Below, piece after piece: positions 15,001 to 21,581 of a stretch of DNA of 38,076 nucleotides. The stretch comes from Bacillota bacterium (lineage in GTDB: Bacteria > Bacillota > Limnochordia > Darwinibacteriales > DTU012), in the NCBI GenBank assembly GCA_012520795.1, contig JAAYNP010000103.1, forward strand, positions 1 to 38,076, given 5' to 3'. The translations under genes and the position numbers were made by a program. The stretch's first letter is position 1. Every line of letters starts with the position of its first letter. The notes beneath the pieces are model-generated. The model searched no databases and had not been told where the DNA came from. It saw only the letters and a list, made by a program, of their open reading frames with translations.

Positions 15001-15030
15001 AAAAAAGAATCCAGGGTTCTGCCCTGGATT
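15001..15030 (-). terminator. intrinsic terminator overlapping the htrA stop codon
   Basis: Minus-strand AATCCAGGG (15022-15030) and CCCTGGATT (15008-15016) form a 9-bp stem with a 5-base loop, followed by C and six T residues. The stem begins inside the htrA stop codon. Confidence 0.8.
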
Positions 15031-16090
15031 ACAATCGTACTTCGGCCTGCTGCCTTTCCTCACCCCGGTAGTATTCCAACTGAAGTATTCCTCCAAATCC
15101 AGTGCTCCAAACGGCGTCCCTCAGCTCACGCATCCCGGCGATCTCCTGGCCGTTGACGGCTACAATGATATCCCCTGGCTTCAACCTTGCTTTATCGGCG
15201 GGGCTGTCCTGGATGACGCGGGTAATAAATGCTCCCCGTTCCACTGCAATCTGGACATTCGTTTCTTTACGGATTGTTTCAGCCAGGGCCGGATAGAGCG
15301 AACCGCCCAGTATGCCCAAACGCAGGGGCCTGCCGTGCTCAATGATTTGATCCGCGACCAATTTGGCTGTCGTTGCCGGAATTGCAAACCCGATCCCTTG
15401 GGCTTGAGCAATAATCGCAGTGTTAATGCCGATCACTTGGCCGTTAATGTCGACCAATGGGCCGCCGGAATTGCCGAGATTGATGGCGGCATCGGTCTGG
15501 ATCATGCCCTCCAAATATCGGTTCTGTTCCGGATCGACCAACAAGTCACGGTTTACCGCACTAACCACACCTGTCGTTACCGTATTATCCTGGCCCAAGG
15601 GGTTGCCAATGGCAACCACCGGCTGCCCGACCCGAATTTCATCGGAGTCTCCCAATTTGGCTGCAGGGAGATCTTGCGCATCAATTTTCAGTACAGCCAG
15701 GTCCGACAGCTCATCGCTTCCCACAATTTCCGCAGGGAAACTGCGCCCGTCCGGCAGCCTGATCAAAATCTGATCGGCAACGGCAACCACATGATGGTTT
15801 GTCAGGACATAACCATCATCCCGGTAAATCACACCAGAGCCTACGCCCTGCTGTTCTTCCAGTGTTTGAAAGAAGAACTGATCAATTACAACCTTGGCTA
15901 ATGTCTCGATTTTTACTGTGGCCGGGCCCACTTTTTGCGCCGCTATCACCACAGGATCATTCCAACTTCCCCGTTGTTCCTGGGATTCGGCTTCGCCTCC
16001 AGGGGGTATGTCCGCAGGCGGCTGCAGCATCCAGGCAAGGGCAACAATGCAGACTACAAGCAAAAATACGGCTACACCCTTCTTAACCAT
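15029..16090 (-). CDS. htrA: HtrA/DegP-type S1C serine protease with one PDZ domain
   Basis: An envelope quality-control protease and chaperone. 353 residues from the ATG at 16090, which has AGGAAGG eight bases upstream; a GTG three codons earlier is too close to that site. N-terminal signal anchor at about 5-22, linker, then trypsin-like domain with the triad H100 (TNHHVV), D130 (SDLAVLKI) and S208 (GNSGGP). A single PDZ domain occupies about 255-350. It lies directly downstream of the mla genes with a 69-base gap, and may be expressed with them or from a weak promoter there. Confidence 0.95.
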   Translation of the reverse strand: MVKKGVAVFLLVVCIVALAWMLQPPADIPPGGEAESQEQRGSWNDPVVIAAQKVGPATVKIETLAKVVIDQFFFQTLEEQQGVGSGVIYRDDGYVLTNHHVVAVADQILIRLPDGRSFPAEIVGSDELSDLAVLKIDAQDLPAAKLGDSDEIRVGQPVVAIGNPLGQDNTVTTGVVSAVNRDLLVDPEQNRYLEGMIQTDAAINLGNSGGPLVDINGQVIGINTAIIAQAQGIGFAIPATTAKLVADQIIEHGRPLRLGILGGSLYPALAETIRKETNVQIAVERGAFITRVIQDSPADKARLKPGDIIVAVNGQEIAGMRELRDAVWSTGFGGILQLEYYRGEERQQAEVRL

Positions 16091-16159
16091 GGTACACACC
16101 TTCCTTTGGTAATGTGTACCTATAGTTTGCCCAACAACAAGGGTGAATTTGTGAGCCTG

Positions 16160-18328
16160 CTAAAATTTCCGTTCCACACCGACCCTGAAGCTGTTGTCGC
16201 GCCCGATATCATCGAAAATCAGGCTGATCAGCCAGCTGGGGTTCCAGGCATAGTTGCCTTGTAACGACAGAGTCGGCTCGCCGGTGGTCAATTTCTTAAG
16301 CTCCCCGGTCAAAACCCATTTGTCACCGATCCGGGCATCAAGGCCAACGCCCAAGCTGGTGTCAATCATCCCATAGCGCTGGCGCAGGACCCCGGTTTGC
16401 CGCCCGTACTGCAGCTGCAAATGATTCCCTTCCGTACCCAGAATATCTTCGATGCCAACCAGGATGAATGAATTCGTGTTCTGGGGCCAAAATTCGAAGC
16501 TGACACCGGTCATCGGGCGCCGATCTAGGATGTTGTAATGGGCACTCCAGGTGGAACGAATGTCCACCTTTTCACCTATCGTTTTCACTTTTTCAATATC
16601 CTCGTTCAGCTTTTGGATGCTGACCATTGTATCTTCCAGTTGGGCAAAGACGCCGCTTTCTGAGTCAAAACTCTCGGAAACCTTGGCCAACAGCTGAGCC
16701 AGTTCGTCAGTCCCAGCTTCGATATTCGCCAAAGAGGCCCGCAAATCGGCGGCAGTCTCGCCTTCCGCAGTTACGTCACCAATAAAGCGGTTTATCTTGG
16801 CTACACTATCCTCAACACCCGTAACTATGCTTTGAATGTCCTTCAGTGCTATAAGAGTCTCGCGGCTGAAACTCTGAACGTCAACATTGATTTGAGTCAC
16901 CATCTGGTTTATCTCTGCCGTCACAGCGTGGACATTGGCGGAAATTCCTTCCAGATCCGCCATGATGGCAGTTACACTGTTGGGATCCACGGCGGTGCTG
17001 ACCGCCCGCAGATTCTCAACAACTTCTTCGACACCGGCTAAGAGCGCATCCAACTGCAGTTCAGCGATGGTTGTGGAGAACTGATGCAAGTCCTCTACCA
17101 CTCCCGCAAACATGGCCTCAAAATCCAGGCCGGCCAGTTCATTGGTAAACGCAGCCAACTGCACCGCCATCTCCTGCCAGCCTATATCTTTCAGTTCAGC
17201 GGCCACCACCTGCAGATCAGCGACAACCTGATCTACCGGCAGTTCCGCCAAAGTCACTGACAAATCATAAACGTTGGCTGCAATAGCCTCAACCGGCACT
17301 GAAGCCAGGCTCCTGGACACAGTCTGGAGATCCGCCGCAATCTCGTTGAGGGGAAATGTGCTTAACTGGGTTGTGAAGGCTGCAATCTCAGCACTGCGCT
17401 CCTCAAGCTCCAAAGCCTTGATTTGATCTGTAACGAGCAGAATCTCGTCGATTAACGGTTGGATTTCCACAGCCGCCAGCATGGATGTAAACTGGCGCAC
17501 ATCCGACTCAATCGCAGCCAGGTCAAGGCCGGCCAATTGCTGGGTAATTCGCTGTACATCAGCGGCAAATTCCTGCAGAGGCAGGGCATTCAACTCAGCG
17601 GCAACCTGATTGATCTCGTTGATCGGATCAACCAGGTTGATGCTGGCCAACTGCTGGGAAAAAGCCTGTATGTCTCCAAAAGTGGATCTCAGGTCCAGTT
17701 CAGGCATTTGCCGAGAAAACTCTGCCAGGTCATCCACCACAACTTGAACACTCCCGGCAACTTCATTCACCTGATCGACGGCGGTCTTCAGGCTGGATAC
17801 CGTATCCCTCAAAAGTTCACCGGTTGCCGCCAGGTTTTCCTGCAGCTGTTCAGAACCGGCCACCTCCGTAATTCTGGCAATGACTTGGTTTAGGCTCTGC
17901 AGCCCTTTCTCCACTTCCTGGATCATATTGTCTATGCTTACAGGACTTACGCCGCTGATTGTCACAGTCAAATCCATGGGTTCCTGTGCCTGGCCAGGCT
18001 GGATCTCAATATATTTGTCCCCAAGAATACCTGAAGCAGCAAGTATAAAGCGCGAATCAGACGGGATCAGCAGTTCCCGGTCCAGCCTGGCTTTGACCAG
18101 GACCTGGCTGCCTGCCAATTGTACCGCTGTCACAGTGCCGACATTGACACCGGCATAGCGTACCGGTGCCCCTTCAACCAATCCGCCAACATTTTCGAAG
18201 CTGAGGACCAGTTCTATACCTTCGGTGCGGCGCAAATCGATTCTCCCTACAGCCATGGCCATGGCTGCAAACAATATGATACTTATCAGCACAGTTACAC
18301 CCGCTTTTGCTTCTGGTGACAGCTGCAT
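16160..18328 (-). CDS. mlaD: long MCE (MlaD-like) protein with 19-residue repeats and a barrel-like C-terminal domain
   Basis: 722 residues, the lipid-binding subunit of an Mla-type ABC system. Residues 9-27 are a single membrane anchor. The MCE domain (about 37-115) has FENVGGLVEGAPVRYAGV and GILGDKYIEI. A helical region follows, holding twelve repeats of 19 residues (212-443), then more helix to about 590. Residues 591-722 change character: alternating polar/hydrophobic strands separated by turns, ending FRVGVERKF, the pattern of an outer-membrane barrel with terminal Phe. Diderm Firmicutes such as Veillonella are reported to have MlaD fused to a C-terminal barrel as a trans-envelope bridge; this fits. 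Its start shares one base with the mlaF stop (TAATG). Confidence 0.88.
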   Translation of the reverse strand: MQLSPEAKAGVTVLISIILFAAMAMAVGRIDLRRTEGIELVLSFENVGGLVEGAPVRYAGVNVGTVTAVQLAGSQVLVKARLDRELLIPSDSRFILAASGILGDKYIEIQPGQAQEPMDLTVTISGVSPVSIDNMIQEVEKGLQSLNQVIARITEVAGSEQLQENLAATGELLRDTVSSLKTAVDQVNEVAGSVQVVVDDLAEFSRQMPELDLRSTFGDIQAFSQQLASINLVDPINEINQVAAELNALPLQEFAADVQRITQQLAGLDLAAIESDVRQFTSMLAAVEIQPLIDEILLVTDQIKALELEERSAEIAAFTTQLSTFPLNEIAADLQTVSRSLASVPVEAIAANVYDLSVTLAELPVDQVVADLQVVAAELKDIGWQEMAVQLAAFTNELAGLDFEAMFAGVVEDLHQFSTTIAELQLDALLAGVEEVVENLRAVSTAVDPNSVTAIMADLEGISANVHAVTAEINQMVTQINVDVQSFSRETLIALKDIQSIVTGVEDSVAKINRFIGDVTAEGETAADLRASLANIEAGTDELAQLLAKVSESFDSESGVFAQLEDTMVSIQKLNEDIEKVKTIGEKVDIRSTWSAHYNILDRRPMTGVSFEFWPQNTNSFILVGIEDILGTEGNHLQLQYGRQTGVLRQRYGMIDTSLGVGLDARIGDKWVLTGELKKLTTGEPTLSLQGNYAWNPSWLISLIFDDIGRDNSFRVGVERKF
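17000..17695 (-). repeat. twelve tandem 19-residue protein repeats inside MlaD
   Basis: Residues 212-443 of the MCE protein divide into twelve units, eleven of exactly 19 residues and one (402-424) of 23. The approximate pattern is [P/D/E]-hydrophobic-x-x-h-x-x-[D/E]-[V/I/L]-x-x-h-x-x-x-L-x-x-hydrophobic. Examples are PLQEFAADVQRITQQLAGL, PVEAIAANVYDLSVTLAEL and PVDQVVADLQVVAAELKDI. Units are diverged at residue level, so the array is old rather than a recent DNA expansion. Confidence 0.8.
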
Positions 18329-19068
18329 TAATATCCCCCCTGCTCACCTTGACCGCCGGTAAGAAAACTCTTCACCAACGGTATTTGCGCTTGCTCCATT
18401 TCGGCCGCCGTACCCACAAAAATTATTTCACCCTCATGCAGTAGAGCCACGCGGTCAGCGATTTTGAAAGCTCCTTCCAAATCATGGGTGACAACCACGG
18501 AAGTCACTTGCAGACGCTCGTTGAGATCTCTTATTAAACTCAAGATCGTATTGCTGGTCATGGGATCTAGCCCCGAAGTAGGCTCGTCATACAATATTGC
18601 CTGCGGCTGCATGGCGATCGCCCGGGCCAGGCCAACACGCTTTTTCATACCGCCGCTTAGCTCGGCAGGCATTTTGCTTTCCACGTCAGCCAACCTAACC
18701 AGGGCAAGGGCTTCTTTTACTTTCTGAGCCAGCTCACTCTTGCTGATTCGATCATTGCGCCAGGCAAAACCCACGTTTTCAGCAACGGTGAGAGAATCAA
18801 ACAATGCCGAAGATTGAAAAACCATCCCAACTTTTCTGCGGATCGGCCCCAGTTCTTTTTCTGTAGCTTTGCTGATATCGGTGCCGTCCACCAAAATCAG
18901 GCCTGAATCCGGCCTGATCAGCCCGTTTAATAAACGGAGGATTGTACTCTTTCCGGCTCCGCTCAAGCCCATGATTACGAAGATCTCGCCATGATTGATT
19001 GACAAAGTGATCTGCTTGAGAATTTGGTTTCCATCGGCGCTGAAACAAACATCCTTTAGCACGAACAT
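18328..19068 (-). CDS. mlaF: Mla-type ABC transporter ATP-binding protein
   Basis: The ATPase of the phospholipid-transport complex, on the cytoplasmic face. 246 residues from the ATG at 19068, which has GGAGG seven bases upstream; the longer frame to 19215 lies inside mlaE and is not used. Walker A is GLSGAGKST, the signature LSGGMKKRVGLARAIA, Walker B ILYDEPTSGLDP, and the switch histidine lies in VVVTHDLEG. The KKRV following the signature is typical of MlaF-like rather than general importers. It starts 20 bases after mlaE ends. Confidence 0.94.
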   Translation of the reverse strand: MFVLKDVCFSADGNQILKQITLSINHGEIFVIMGLSGAGKSTILRLLNGLIRPDSGLILVDGTDISKATEKELGPIRRKVGMVFQSSALFDSLTVAENVGFAWRNDRISKSELAQKVKEALALVRLADVESKMPAELSGGMKKRVGLARAIAMQPQAILYDEPTSGLDPMTSNTILSLIRDLNERLQVTSVVVTHDLEGAFKIADRVALLHEGEIIFVGTAAEMEQAQIPLVKSFLTGGQGEQGGY

Positions 19069-19088: not shown

Positions 19089-19826
19089 CTACCACATCAA
19101 TGCTGAGAGAAAGTAGTTGGAGATGAAGATGCCTATCATACTGCTGACTACTGCTGCGATTGTGGCTGTGCCCACACCCTGGGCCCCTTTGGTTGTGTTC
19201 AGCCCATGATAGCAACCGGCAATCGCCACGATGATGCCAAACACGGCAGCTTTAACCAAACTGCACAAAATATCGTAAATATTGATTGCCCTAATCGATG
19301 ACTGGTAGAATACCATCGGAATAATCCCCACTTGATTGGTAGCCACCACATAACCACCGGTCATTCCAATCAGATGGGCAAAAACAGTCAAGGCAGGCAC
19401 CATGATCATGCAGGCAATCACCCGGGGGACAACCAAATACTGCACCGGGCTGGTGGCCATGGCTTTCAACGCATCAATTTGCTCCGTAACATTCATTGCA
19501 CCCAGTTCGGCGGCTATTGCCGATCCTGCTCTCCCGGCAACCACAACGCCGGTCAAAACCGCTCCCAGCTCCCTGATGACGGCAAGCCCCAACAGTTGGC
19601 CGATAAAAGATTCGGCGCCAAACCGTTTCATTTCCTGGGCAACTTGCAGTGAGAACACCATGCCGGTAAAGCCGTTGATGATCAGCACCAAAGGAATTGA
19701 CCTGACACCAAGGGCCACCATTTGCTGAGTGGTGTTCTTGAATTCCACATCGCCCCGGACAATATGATAGAATGCTTCCATGATCAAACGGGCAATTTGG
19801 CCTACATTCTCAAAAAATCTGATCAT
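19089..19826 (-). CDS. mlaE: Mla-type ABC transporter permease
   Basis: The inner-membrane permease of the Mla complex. 245 residues, with an N-terminal amphipathic helix and about five membrane helices. Family landmarks are FTGMVFSLQVAQEMKRFGAE, the conserved ELGAVLTGVVVAGRAGSAIAAELG spread over two segments, EQIDALKAMATSPVQYLVVPRV, and a glycine-rich last third. ATG behind GAGGAG. It is first in the mlaE-mlaF-mlaD operon. The lipid cargo and direction cannot be read from sequence. Confidence 0.94.
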   Translation of the reverse strand: MIRFFENVGQIARLIMEAFYHIVRGDVEFKNTTQQMVALGVRSIPLVLIINGFTGMVFSLQVAQEMKRFGAESFIGQLLGLAVIRELGAVLTGVVVAGRAGSAIAAELGAMNVTEQIDALKAMATSPVQYLVVPRVIACMIMVPALTVFAHLIGMTGGYVVATNQVGIIPMVFYQSSIRAINIYDILCSLVKAAVFGIIVAIAGCYHGLNTTKGAQGVGTATIAAVVSSMIGIFISNYFLSALMW

Positions 19827-19935: not shown

Positions 19936-20775
19936 CTAATCTGCCGCTGACACTGTGTTGGCCAGCAGCATGGCGATAGTCATCGGCCCAACTCCACCCG
20001 GCACCGGCGTAATCCATCCCGCCACTTCCTTAACTTGGCCGAAGTCGACATCACCGACTGTCTTCTTGCCGACTCTATTGATGCCTACATCAATCACAAC
20101 CGCCCCGGTCTTTACCCACTCAGCTTTAACCATCTGCGGCCTTCCAACAGCTACAACCAGAATTTCTGCCTGCCTGGCTTCGGCCACCAAATCTTTCGTG
20201 CGGGAATGGCAGATAGTGACCGTGGCATTCCGCTGCAGCAAAAGCTGGGCAATGGGTTTGCCCACTATATTGCTGCGCCCGATTACAACTGCCTTTTTGC
20301 CTGCCGGATCAATCTTGATCCAGTCAAGCATCTTCATAATGCCCGCCGGAGTACAAGGGGGATAAGCCTTGGCTCCTATCGTCAGCCGGCCCACATTGAT
20401 GGGGTGAAACCCGTCCACATCCTTCTCGGGGTGGATCCGCATGATCACTTCCTCTTCGTTCAGGCCTTCGGGAAGAGGCAGCTGCACAAGGATTCCATGG
20501 ATTTTGGGATCGCTGTTAAGCTGATCAATCAGTTCCAGCAGCTGCTTCTGGCTGATCGTTTCCGGCAGCCGGTGTTCCTCTGAGTAAATACCCACCTCCT
20601 GGCAGGCCTTTTGCTTCATCCTTACATAGAGCTGTGAGGCAGGGTTTTCTCCTACCAGGACAACGGCCAACCCAGGCCTGGGCCTTCCCTGTTCCAAGCG
20701 AACCTGAATCTGCCGGGCCAGGTTATTACGGATTTGTTGGGCAATCTGTCTGCCGTCAATTATTTGTGCCCCCAC
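19936..20775 (-). CDS. folD: bifunctional methylene-THF dehydrogenase / methenyl-THF cyclohydrolase
   Basis: Interconverts 5,10-methylene-, methenyl- and 10-formyl-tetrahydrofolate using NADP+. 279 residues from the GTG at 20775, which has AAGGAGGAG eight bases upstream; the frame extends to 20841 but without a site. Key segments are the catalytic lysine in [21 protein letters not shown], the [15 protein letters not shown] dinucleotide loop, and the C-terminal [16 protein letters not shown]. It stands alone between the tRNA-Arg terminator and its own terminator. Confidence 0.96.
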
Positions 20776-20842
20776 ACGTTTCTCCTCCTTGCTACAGCTT
20801 ATGGTGGTTGGTTTCGGCATATTACTGTTTATTTCCTGCAAT

Positions 20843-21152: not shown

Positions 21153-21187
21153 GCTCGATTGCGGGTAGGCTCCGCAATCGGGCTTTT
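21153..21187 (+). terminator. intrinsic terminator after tRNA-Gly
   Basis: CGATTGCGG (21156-21164) and CCGCAATCG (21172-21180) form a 9-bp stem, extended by GCT/GGC pairing, followed by TTTT. It abuts the 3' end of the convergent FMN-binding gene. Confidence 0.75.
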
Positions 21188-21581
21188 ACATTTTGTCTGC
21201 TGCTTTTAAGGCATTTTTGGCTGCTTCCCGGAATTTTTCCCCGGTGCCGGTCGCCTCGGTAATATTGTCCACCTTGTCCGGGTTCTGGGTCTCAACCAAC
21301 TGGGCTTCATATTTGGGAATTGCCTCAATTGCCTGCGGCCAGGGGTATTCCGAACCTTTGGGTTTGCCTTCGCCATCATACTCCACATACTCTGCAGACG
21401 TGATCTTGCCGTCTTCAACCTTTATCTGAATTGCTCCGTAGTTGCCCCGCTCATCAGTGACGGATTTTCCTTCGTATGTACCGTCTTTGTAGCTTACGGC
21501 GCTGGACTGGCGGTTGAAATACCAAGCGCCGGCAATAATCAAAGCCACCGCCACAATGGCGATCCACATCCTGTTCATCAA
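21186..21581 (-). CDS. membrane-anchored FMN-binding domain protein
   Basis: 131 residues. An N-terminal anchor (about 5-21) places the rest outside the inner membrane. Residues about 35-128 form an FMN_bind domain, as in RnfG/NqrC-like proteins. The flavinylation motif reads D105-N-I-T-E-A-T111, close to the DxxSGAT pattern where ApbE attaches FMN to the last Thr, but with Glu replacing Gly. It is a stand-alone gene between tRNA units, with no Rnf or ApbE gene visible. It probably acts as a small extracytoplasmic electron carrier. Confidence 0.8.
   Translation of the reverse strand: MMNRMWIAIVAVALIIAGAWYFNRQSSAVSYKDGTYEGKSVTDERGNYGAIQIKVEDGKITSAEYVEYDGEGKPKGSEYPWPQAIEAIPKYEAQLVETQNPDKVDNITEATGTGEKFREAAKNALKAADKM

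Follow-up and report, generated by a model that had tools for sequence, protein, structure and literature searches.

The Mla system is usually explained as a guard of LPS asymmetry. In its canonical form in E. coli (MlaA, B, C, D, E and F), a short MlaD is combined with the soluble ferry MlaC. The E. coli proteins PqiB and LetB span the periplasm with three or seven MCE domains and have no barrel; PqiB ends in a helical needle. MCE systems are also established in envelopes whose outer membrane lacks LPS, namely in chloroplasts (TGD2) and in mycobacteria, the Mce1 system of M. smegmatis included. In Mce1, a ring of six different MCE proteins sits on an ABC permease. Each of these proteins contributes eight kinked helical repeats to the needle, a closed tube in which every repeat forms one stacked six-helix module (PMC9882608).

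The MlaEFD transporter of Veillonella parvula, a diderm Firmicute, dispenses with MlaC. Its MlaD (419 residues) consists of an anchor, one MCE domain, an extended helical region of about 150 residues and a C-terminal 10-strand barrel, which was placed in the outer membrane by fractionation (Grasekamp et al. 2023, PMC10665443). The genes mlaE and mlaF are adjacent, and the organism has LPS as well as TamB, which opposes MlaEFD. The periplasm of Veillonella is 24 nm wide, and structure predictions for its MlaD also gave an open-groove form (PMC10665443). In the same study, the long MlaD type was reported for 'a few Limnochordia', MlaA was reported absent from diderm Terrabacteria, and the absence of LPS was given as the reason why some diderms have no Mla. 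The class of the present host was already known as diderm, with Mla in a few members (PMC10665443, PMC11456536).

The window analysed here is a stretch of 38,076 nucleotides from a Limnochordia-type Bacillota MAG, a member of this class (assembly GCA_012520795.1, contig JAAYNP010000103.1). All genes of the locus are encoded on the reverse strand. The permease gene mlaE (19089..19826) was identified by PF02405 (E 4.7e-76) and by TIGR00056 above its cut-off. The ABC ATPase gene mlaF (18328..19068; ABC_tran E 3.9e-36, with the MlaF model among the matches) starts with an ATG at 19068 preceded by GGAGG, and its stop codon shares bases with the start codon of mlaD (TAATG). The gene mlaD (16160..18328) encodes a long, transenvelope-type protein of 722 aa. 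Upstream, folD (19936..20841) is a conserved neighbour that belongs to the context and lies outside the machine. The GTDB relatives L019-L026 show the same order, folD-mlaE-mlaF-mlaD, to the extent that their contigs cover it. Downstream, a gene for an HtrA/DegP-like protease with Trypsin_2 and PDZ domains (15029..16099) follows mlaD in several relatives (same place in L019-L024). This protease lies 60 bases past mlaD, keeps its position in at least six relatives, and could serve in barrel quality control.

Complete MlaD relatives of the same layout were found in 12 other genomes of the host's order (identity 32-75%), so that the long protein is not an assembly artefact. MlaD carries one MCE domain per chain and is the sole MCE protein of the host genome. 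A search for MlaC gave no match in the host genome and none above cut-off in a sample of 61 related genomes (37 of the host's order, 3 of family f6 and 21 others of the class); weak, partial MlaC-like matches below cut-off were found in five relatives.

An earlier note on this DNA had described an MlaD with an inner-membrane anchor and an MCE domain at one end, a strand-rich domain at residues 591-722 with the terminal-Phe signature of outer-membrane barrels (VGVERKF) at the other, about 470 helical residues between them, and mlaE and mlaF alongside. The layout obtained here agrees closely, both transport genes belonging to the same operon and lying directly upstream of mlaD in the window and, wherever the contig allows, in the GTDB relatives. 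Residues 1-112 (17993..18328) comprise the anchor and the MCE domain. AlphaFold2 predicted a helix at residues 5-29 followed by a beta MCE fold (pLDDT 70-85), and PF02470 matched residues 37-112 far over its cut-off (E 1.2e-21; match at 17993-18220).

The C-terminal residues 588-722 (16163..16567) end in VGVERKF and are predicted to form a 10-strand outer-membrane beta-barrel. An AlphaFold2 model of residues 570-722 built with 11 sequences showed 10 strands from about residue 588 to 722 (pLDDT 89, pTM 0.77). The structure prediction that had been set as a test of the C-terminus thus returned a barrel, and its best solved fold matches were outer-membrane barrels. In a VIA structure comparison, the top match was the outer-membrane protease Pla (Z 16.1, rmsd 2.4, 129 residues), and a designed ten-strand transmembrane barrel was found at Z 14.1. 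Foldseek gave three matches at E < 1e-3, comprising a designed transmembrane barrel and KdgM porins. No solved relative of the barrel was found by sequence-profile search. Hydrophobic and polar residues alternate in the strands (1.82 versus 0.77 +/- 0.18 shuffled), a value not reached in 5000 column shuffles. The last residue is Phe in all 12 aligned sequences, and Phe also ends BamA, OmpM and other outer-membrane barrels of the host genome. Small indels were present in the barrel of every relative. The fold matches, the strand alternation and the invariant terminal Phe shared with outer-membrane proteins of the host favour a predicted outer-membrane rather than a soluble barrel.

The linker that connects the MCE domain to the barrel has about 475 residues and was predicted by AlphaFold2 to be mostly helical at low confidence. 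The model of the full-length monomer is poor except at its ends (pTM 0.27; linker mostly pLDDT 35-69). A first segment (residues 113-207, 17708..17992) contains low-confidence helices at 132-155 and 162-207, and a second one (residues 417-587, 16568..17080) contains low-confidence helices up to residue 582. The residues between the two (208-416, 17081..17707) form eleven repeats of 19 residues, recognised by lag-19 self-similarity, by a consensus and by the pattern of helices and breaks. The consensus derived from 120 units is L-A-x-L-[PD]-L-E-E-I-A-A-[DE]-L-x-x-F-T-x-E, with hydrophobic residues at positions 1, 4, 6, 9, 13 and 16. Each repeat corresponds to approximately one 15-residue helix plus a short break, and the helix in the full-length model is broken about every 19 residues. 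Compared with shuffled sequences, the lag-19 signal reached a z of 7.2 in the window MlaD and 6-10 in eleven relatives, and was weaker (4.7) in L015. The 19-residue period was absent from the MlaD outside the order (genome G046, L016/L056), in which the barrel end is similar, and from the C-terminal helices of E. coli PqiB, as judged by lag-19 self-similarity. No description of the repeat was found in the literature. Its regularity offers an easy way into the question of how an MCE tube is constructed and what sets its length.

The linker of eight of the 12 relatives (36-75% identity) contains no indels. An insertion of 19 residues was found in L013 and one of 38 residues at the same place in L014; L008 has changes of -4 and -1. 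The most diverged relative, L015, is shorter by a net 19 residues, and a change by a whole unit was considered and rejected for it, the alignment giving smaller indels of -7, +3, -16, +7 and -6. Segment 113-207 has no gaps in 10 relatives, and segment 417-587 has one single-residue gap in the same number. From these alignments, the length of the linker appears strongly conserved. Changes by whole repeats are suggested by one or two events. A single straight helix of the length of the linker would measure about 70 nm; compared with the 24 nm of the Veillonella periplasm, this calls for a wide periplasm or for a chain that folds.

In the host genome, BamA is present, as in 59 of the 61 genomes of the sample, and an outer-membrane cluster of the diderm-Firmicute type encodes OmpH-like chaperones, LptF/G, an LptD-like protein, LptC, LptA, LptB, FabZ, an SLH-OmpM and the flagellar L-ring protein FlgH. 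Judged from this gene content (BamA, OmpM, Lpt and FlgH), the host very likely has an outer membrane, as had been proposed before. The four genes named in the earlier note for a search of the genome did not all turn up: BamA, OmpM and an LptD-like protein were found and LpxC gave no match. TamB gave no match in the host genome either, and the same models find LpxC and TamB in control genomes. In the LpxC-bearing classmate G049, a cluster contains TamB, LpxD, LpxC, LpxA, LpxI and LpxB. The same cluster in the host and two other genomes (G008 and G010) keeps BamA, a YjbH-like protein, LptF/G, an LptD-like protein, an ABC pair, an LpxB-like protein, LptB, DUF3084 and OmpM, and gave no match for TamB, LpxD, LpxC, LpxA and LpxI.

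The LpxB-like protein clearly matches solved LpxB and scores below the equivalog cut-off for lipid A synthesis (164 versus 190 bits). It is diverged and encoded beside FabZ and LptB (L031:11506-12636, on contig C119 of the host genome), likewise in G008, and in G010 without FabZ. It may make a non-standard glycolipid, which would be exported by the retained Lpt machinery. Given the absence of LpxC, the lack of lpxA, lpxC, lpxD and lpxI in the syntenic cluster and the low score of the LpxB-like protein, standard lipid A synthesis in the host is very unlikely on genomic grounds. Without LpxC, the outer membrane is also unlikely to be of the standard LPS type. In the OmpM of the host (L031:14928-17534, 868 aa), the SLH domain and the barrel are separated by about 330 mostly helical residues, as estimated by eye; the stalk of Veillonella OmpM1 has about 50 residues (PMC10628300). 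Such a long stalk may mean that peptidoglycan and outer membrane lie far apart.

LpxC was absent from all 40 sampled genomes of the host's order (37) and family f6 (3); the other 21 genomes of the class all have it. An MCE protein was found in 14 of the 61 genomes, all of them lacking LpxC; MlaD and LpxC were never found together. The Fisher value for this association (0.001) takes no account of shared ancestry and should not be read as proof. MlaD was not found in G004, of the same genus as the host, nor in G007, of the same family, although their relatives have it, and in family f3 all sampled genomes but one are without MlaD, which may reflect patchy loss or assembly gaps. No description of the relation between MlaD and LpxC in this class was found in the literature. 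Since the complete transenvelope MlaEFD is confined, within a diderm class, to members that lack LpxC, a natural test of the role and direction of long MlaD without standard LPS is at hand.

Compared with V. parvula, the host has the same arrangement of anchor, single MCE domain, extended helical region and predicted 10-strand barrel, as well as adjacent mlaE and mlaF and no MlaC. It differs in the length of MlaD (722 residues) and of its linker (about 475 residues), in the 19-residue tandem repeats, and in the lack of LpxC and TamB. MlaD of the host is thus a longer, repeat-built form of the known Veillonella-type protein in an LpxC-less diderm. With Mce1, the host system shares predicted kinked helical repeats and, as proposed here, an MCE ring on an ABC permease and an outer membrane that probably lacks standard LPS; unlike Mce1, the host has one MCE gene, eleven clear repeats and a predicted ten-strand barrel of its own on each chain. 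PqiB and LetB resemble the proposed bridge in spanning the periplasm but differ from its single MCE domain. MlaE, MlaF and the MCE domain of MlaD are shared with the canonical system of E. coli, in which a short MlaD and MlaC take the place of the long MlaD. MCE proteins in the absence of LPS are not new in themselves. Within the diderm Firmicutes, the host lineage is a counterexample to the view that Mla has no use in the absence of LPS (PMC10665443).

The predicted barrel and the precedent of Veillonella make it quite likely that the locus encodes a three-component MlaEFD lipid transporter of the Veillonella type, in which one protein, MlaD, would link both membranes. By analogy with known MCE proteins, six copies of MlaD would form an MCE ring on MlaE2F2, their six sets of helices would form a hydrophobic tube, and six barrels would anchor the far end of the tube in the outer membrane. 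As in the Mce1 needle, each 19-residue repeat could be one stacked module, and the tube could lengthen by whole modules. With less certainty, the cargo may be glycerophospholipid: in a host without LpxC and TamB, the transporter would supply or balance an outer membrane devoid of standard lipid A instead of guarding LPS asymmetry. The widest version of the proposal is tentative and, taken as a whole, rather unlikely. According to it, MlaEFD would be the main route by which phospholipid is supplied to, or moves both to and from, an outer membrane that has neither standard lipid A nor TamB. Its modular tube, with a length set in steps of 19 residues, would span a periplasm of unusual width. The long tether of OmpM fits a wide periplasm.

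That the C-terminus of MlaD is instead a soluble lipocalin- or nitrobindin-like periplasmic barrel, which would hand lipids to an outer-membrane partner without being inserted, is distinctly improbable. Soluble 10-strand barrels (BFA1, DUF3598 and nitrobindins) did align with the model in VIA at Z 12-13.6, and the hydrophobic faces were, if anything, slightly more conserved than the polar ones (p 0.057), as a ligand-filled interior would also give. However, the best matches were outer-membrane proteins (Pla at Z 16.1; a designed transmembrane barrel and KdgM in Foldseek), the invariant terminal Phe closes the last strand as in the host's own outer-membrane proteins, and in Veillonella a protein of this architecture was recovered with the outer membrane on fractionation (PMC10665443). 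The long helices could serve as a tether or as fold-back coiled coils rather than as a closed tube, with lipids moving along a groove or on other carriers. This is quite unlikely: the strict conservation of length and the regular hydrophobic positions suggest a regular assembly, and a closed tube of kinked helical repeats exists in the Mce1 needle (PMC9882608), although 475 residues go far beyond the need of a 24 nm periplasm, the linker model is of low confidence, and an open-groove form is among the Veillonella predictions (PMC10665443).

A further rival reading concerns the whole-unit changes in linker length. Tandem units tend to come and go whole by mutation alone, the insertions in L013 and L014 share one site and represent one or two events, and the indels of L015 and L008 are not multiples of 19. 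Mere repeat expansion by recombination, with no ruler implied, is a serious possibility, if a little short of even; it is opposed by the segments 113-207 and 417-587, which contain no repeats and are likewise almost free of indels in 10 relatives. Finally, a glycolipid resembling lipid A might still be made in this lineage by a pathway that escapes recognition, and Mla would keep its usual role. The LpxB-like protein and the Lpt machinery retained in the outer-membrane cluster point in this direction, but such a route is somewhat unlikely in view of the absence of LpxC throughout the order and family f6 (40 of 40 genomes), the lack of lpxA, lpxC, lpxD and lpxI in its syntenic cluster, and the score of the LpxB-like protein under the lipid A cut-off.

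Three further observations were made on the host genome. A two-partner-secretion type Omp85 (ShlB/POTRA_2) adjoins a protein of 2399 aa (L032:3863-12593); the latter was considered as a possible TamB and rejected, as no Pfam or NCBIfam family matched. Positions 21186-21581 of the window encode a small FMN-binding protein that is similar to PplA, a flavoprotein of extracellular electron transfer (NCBIfam E 1e-10, well under cut-off). A 725-aa permease-like protein without a family name is encoded together with its ATPase inside the Lpt cluster (L031:8022-10955) and is kept across the class (42-65% identity to G049).
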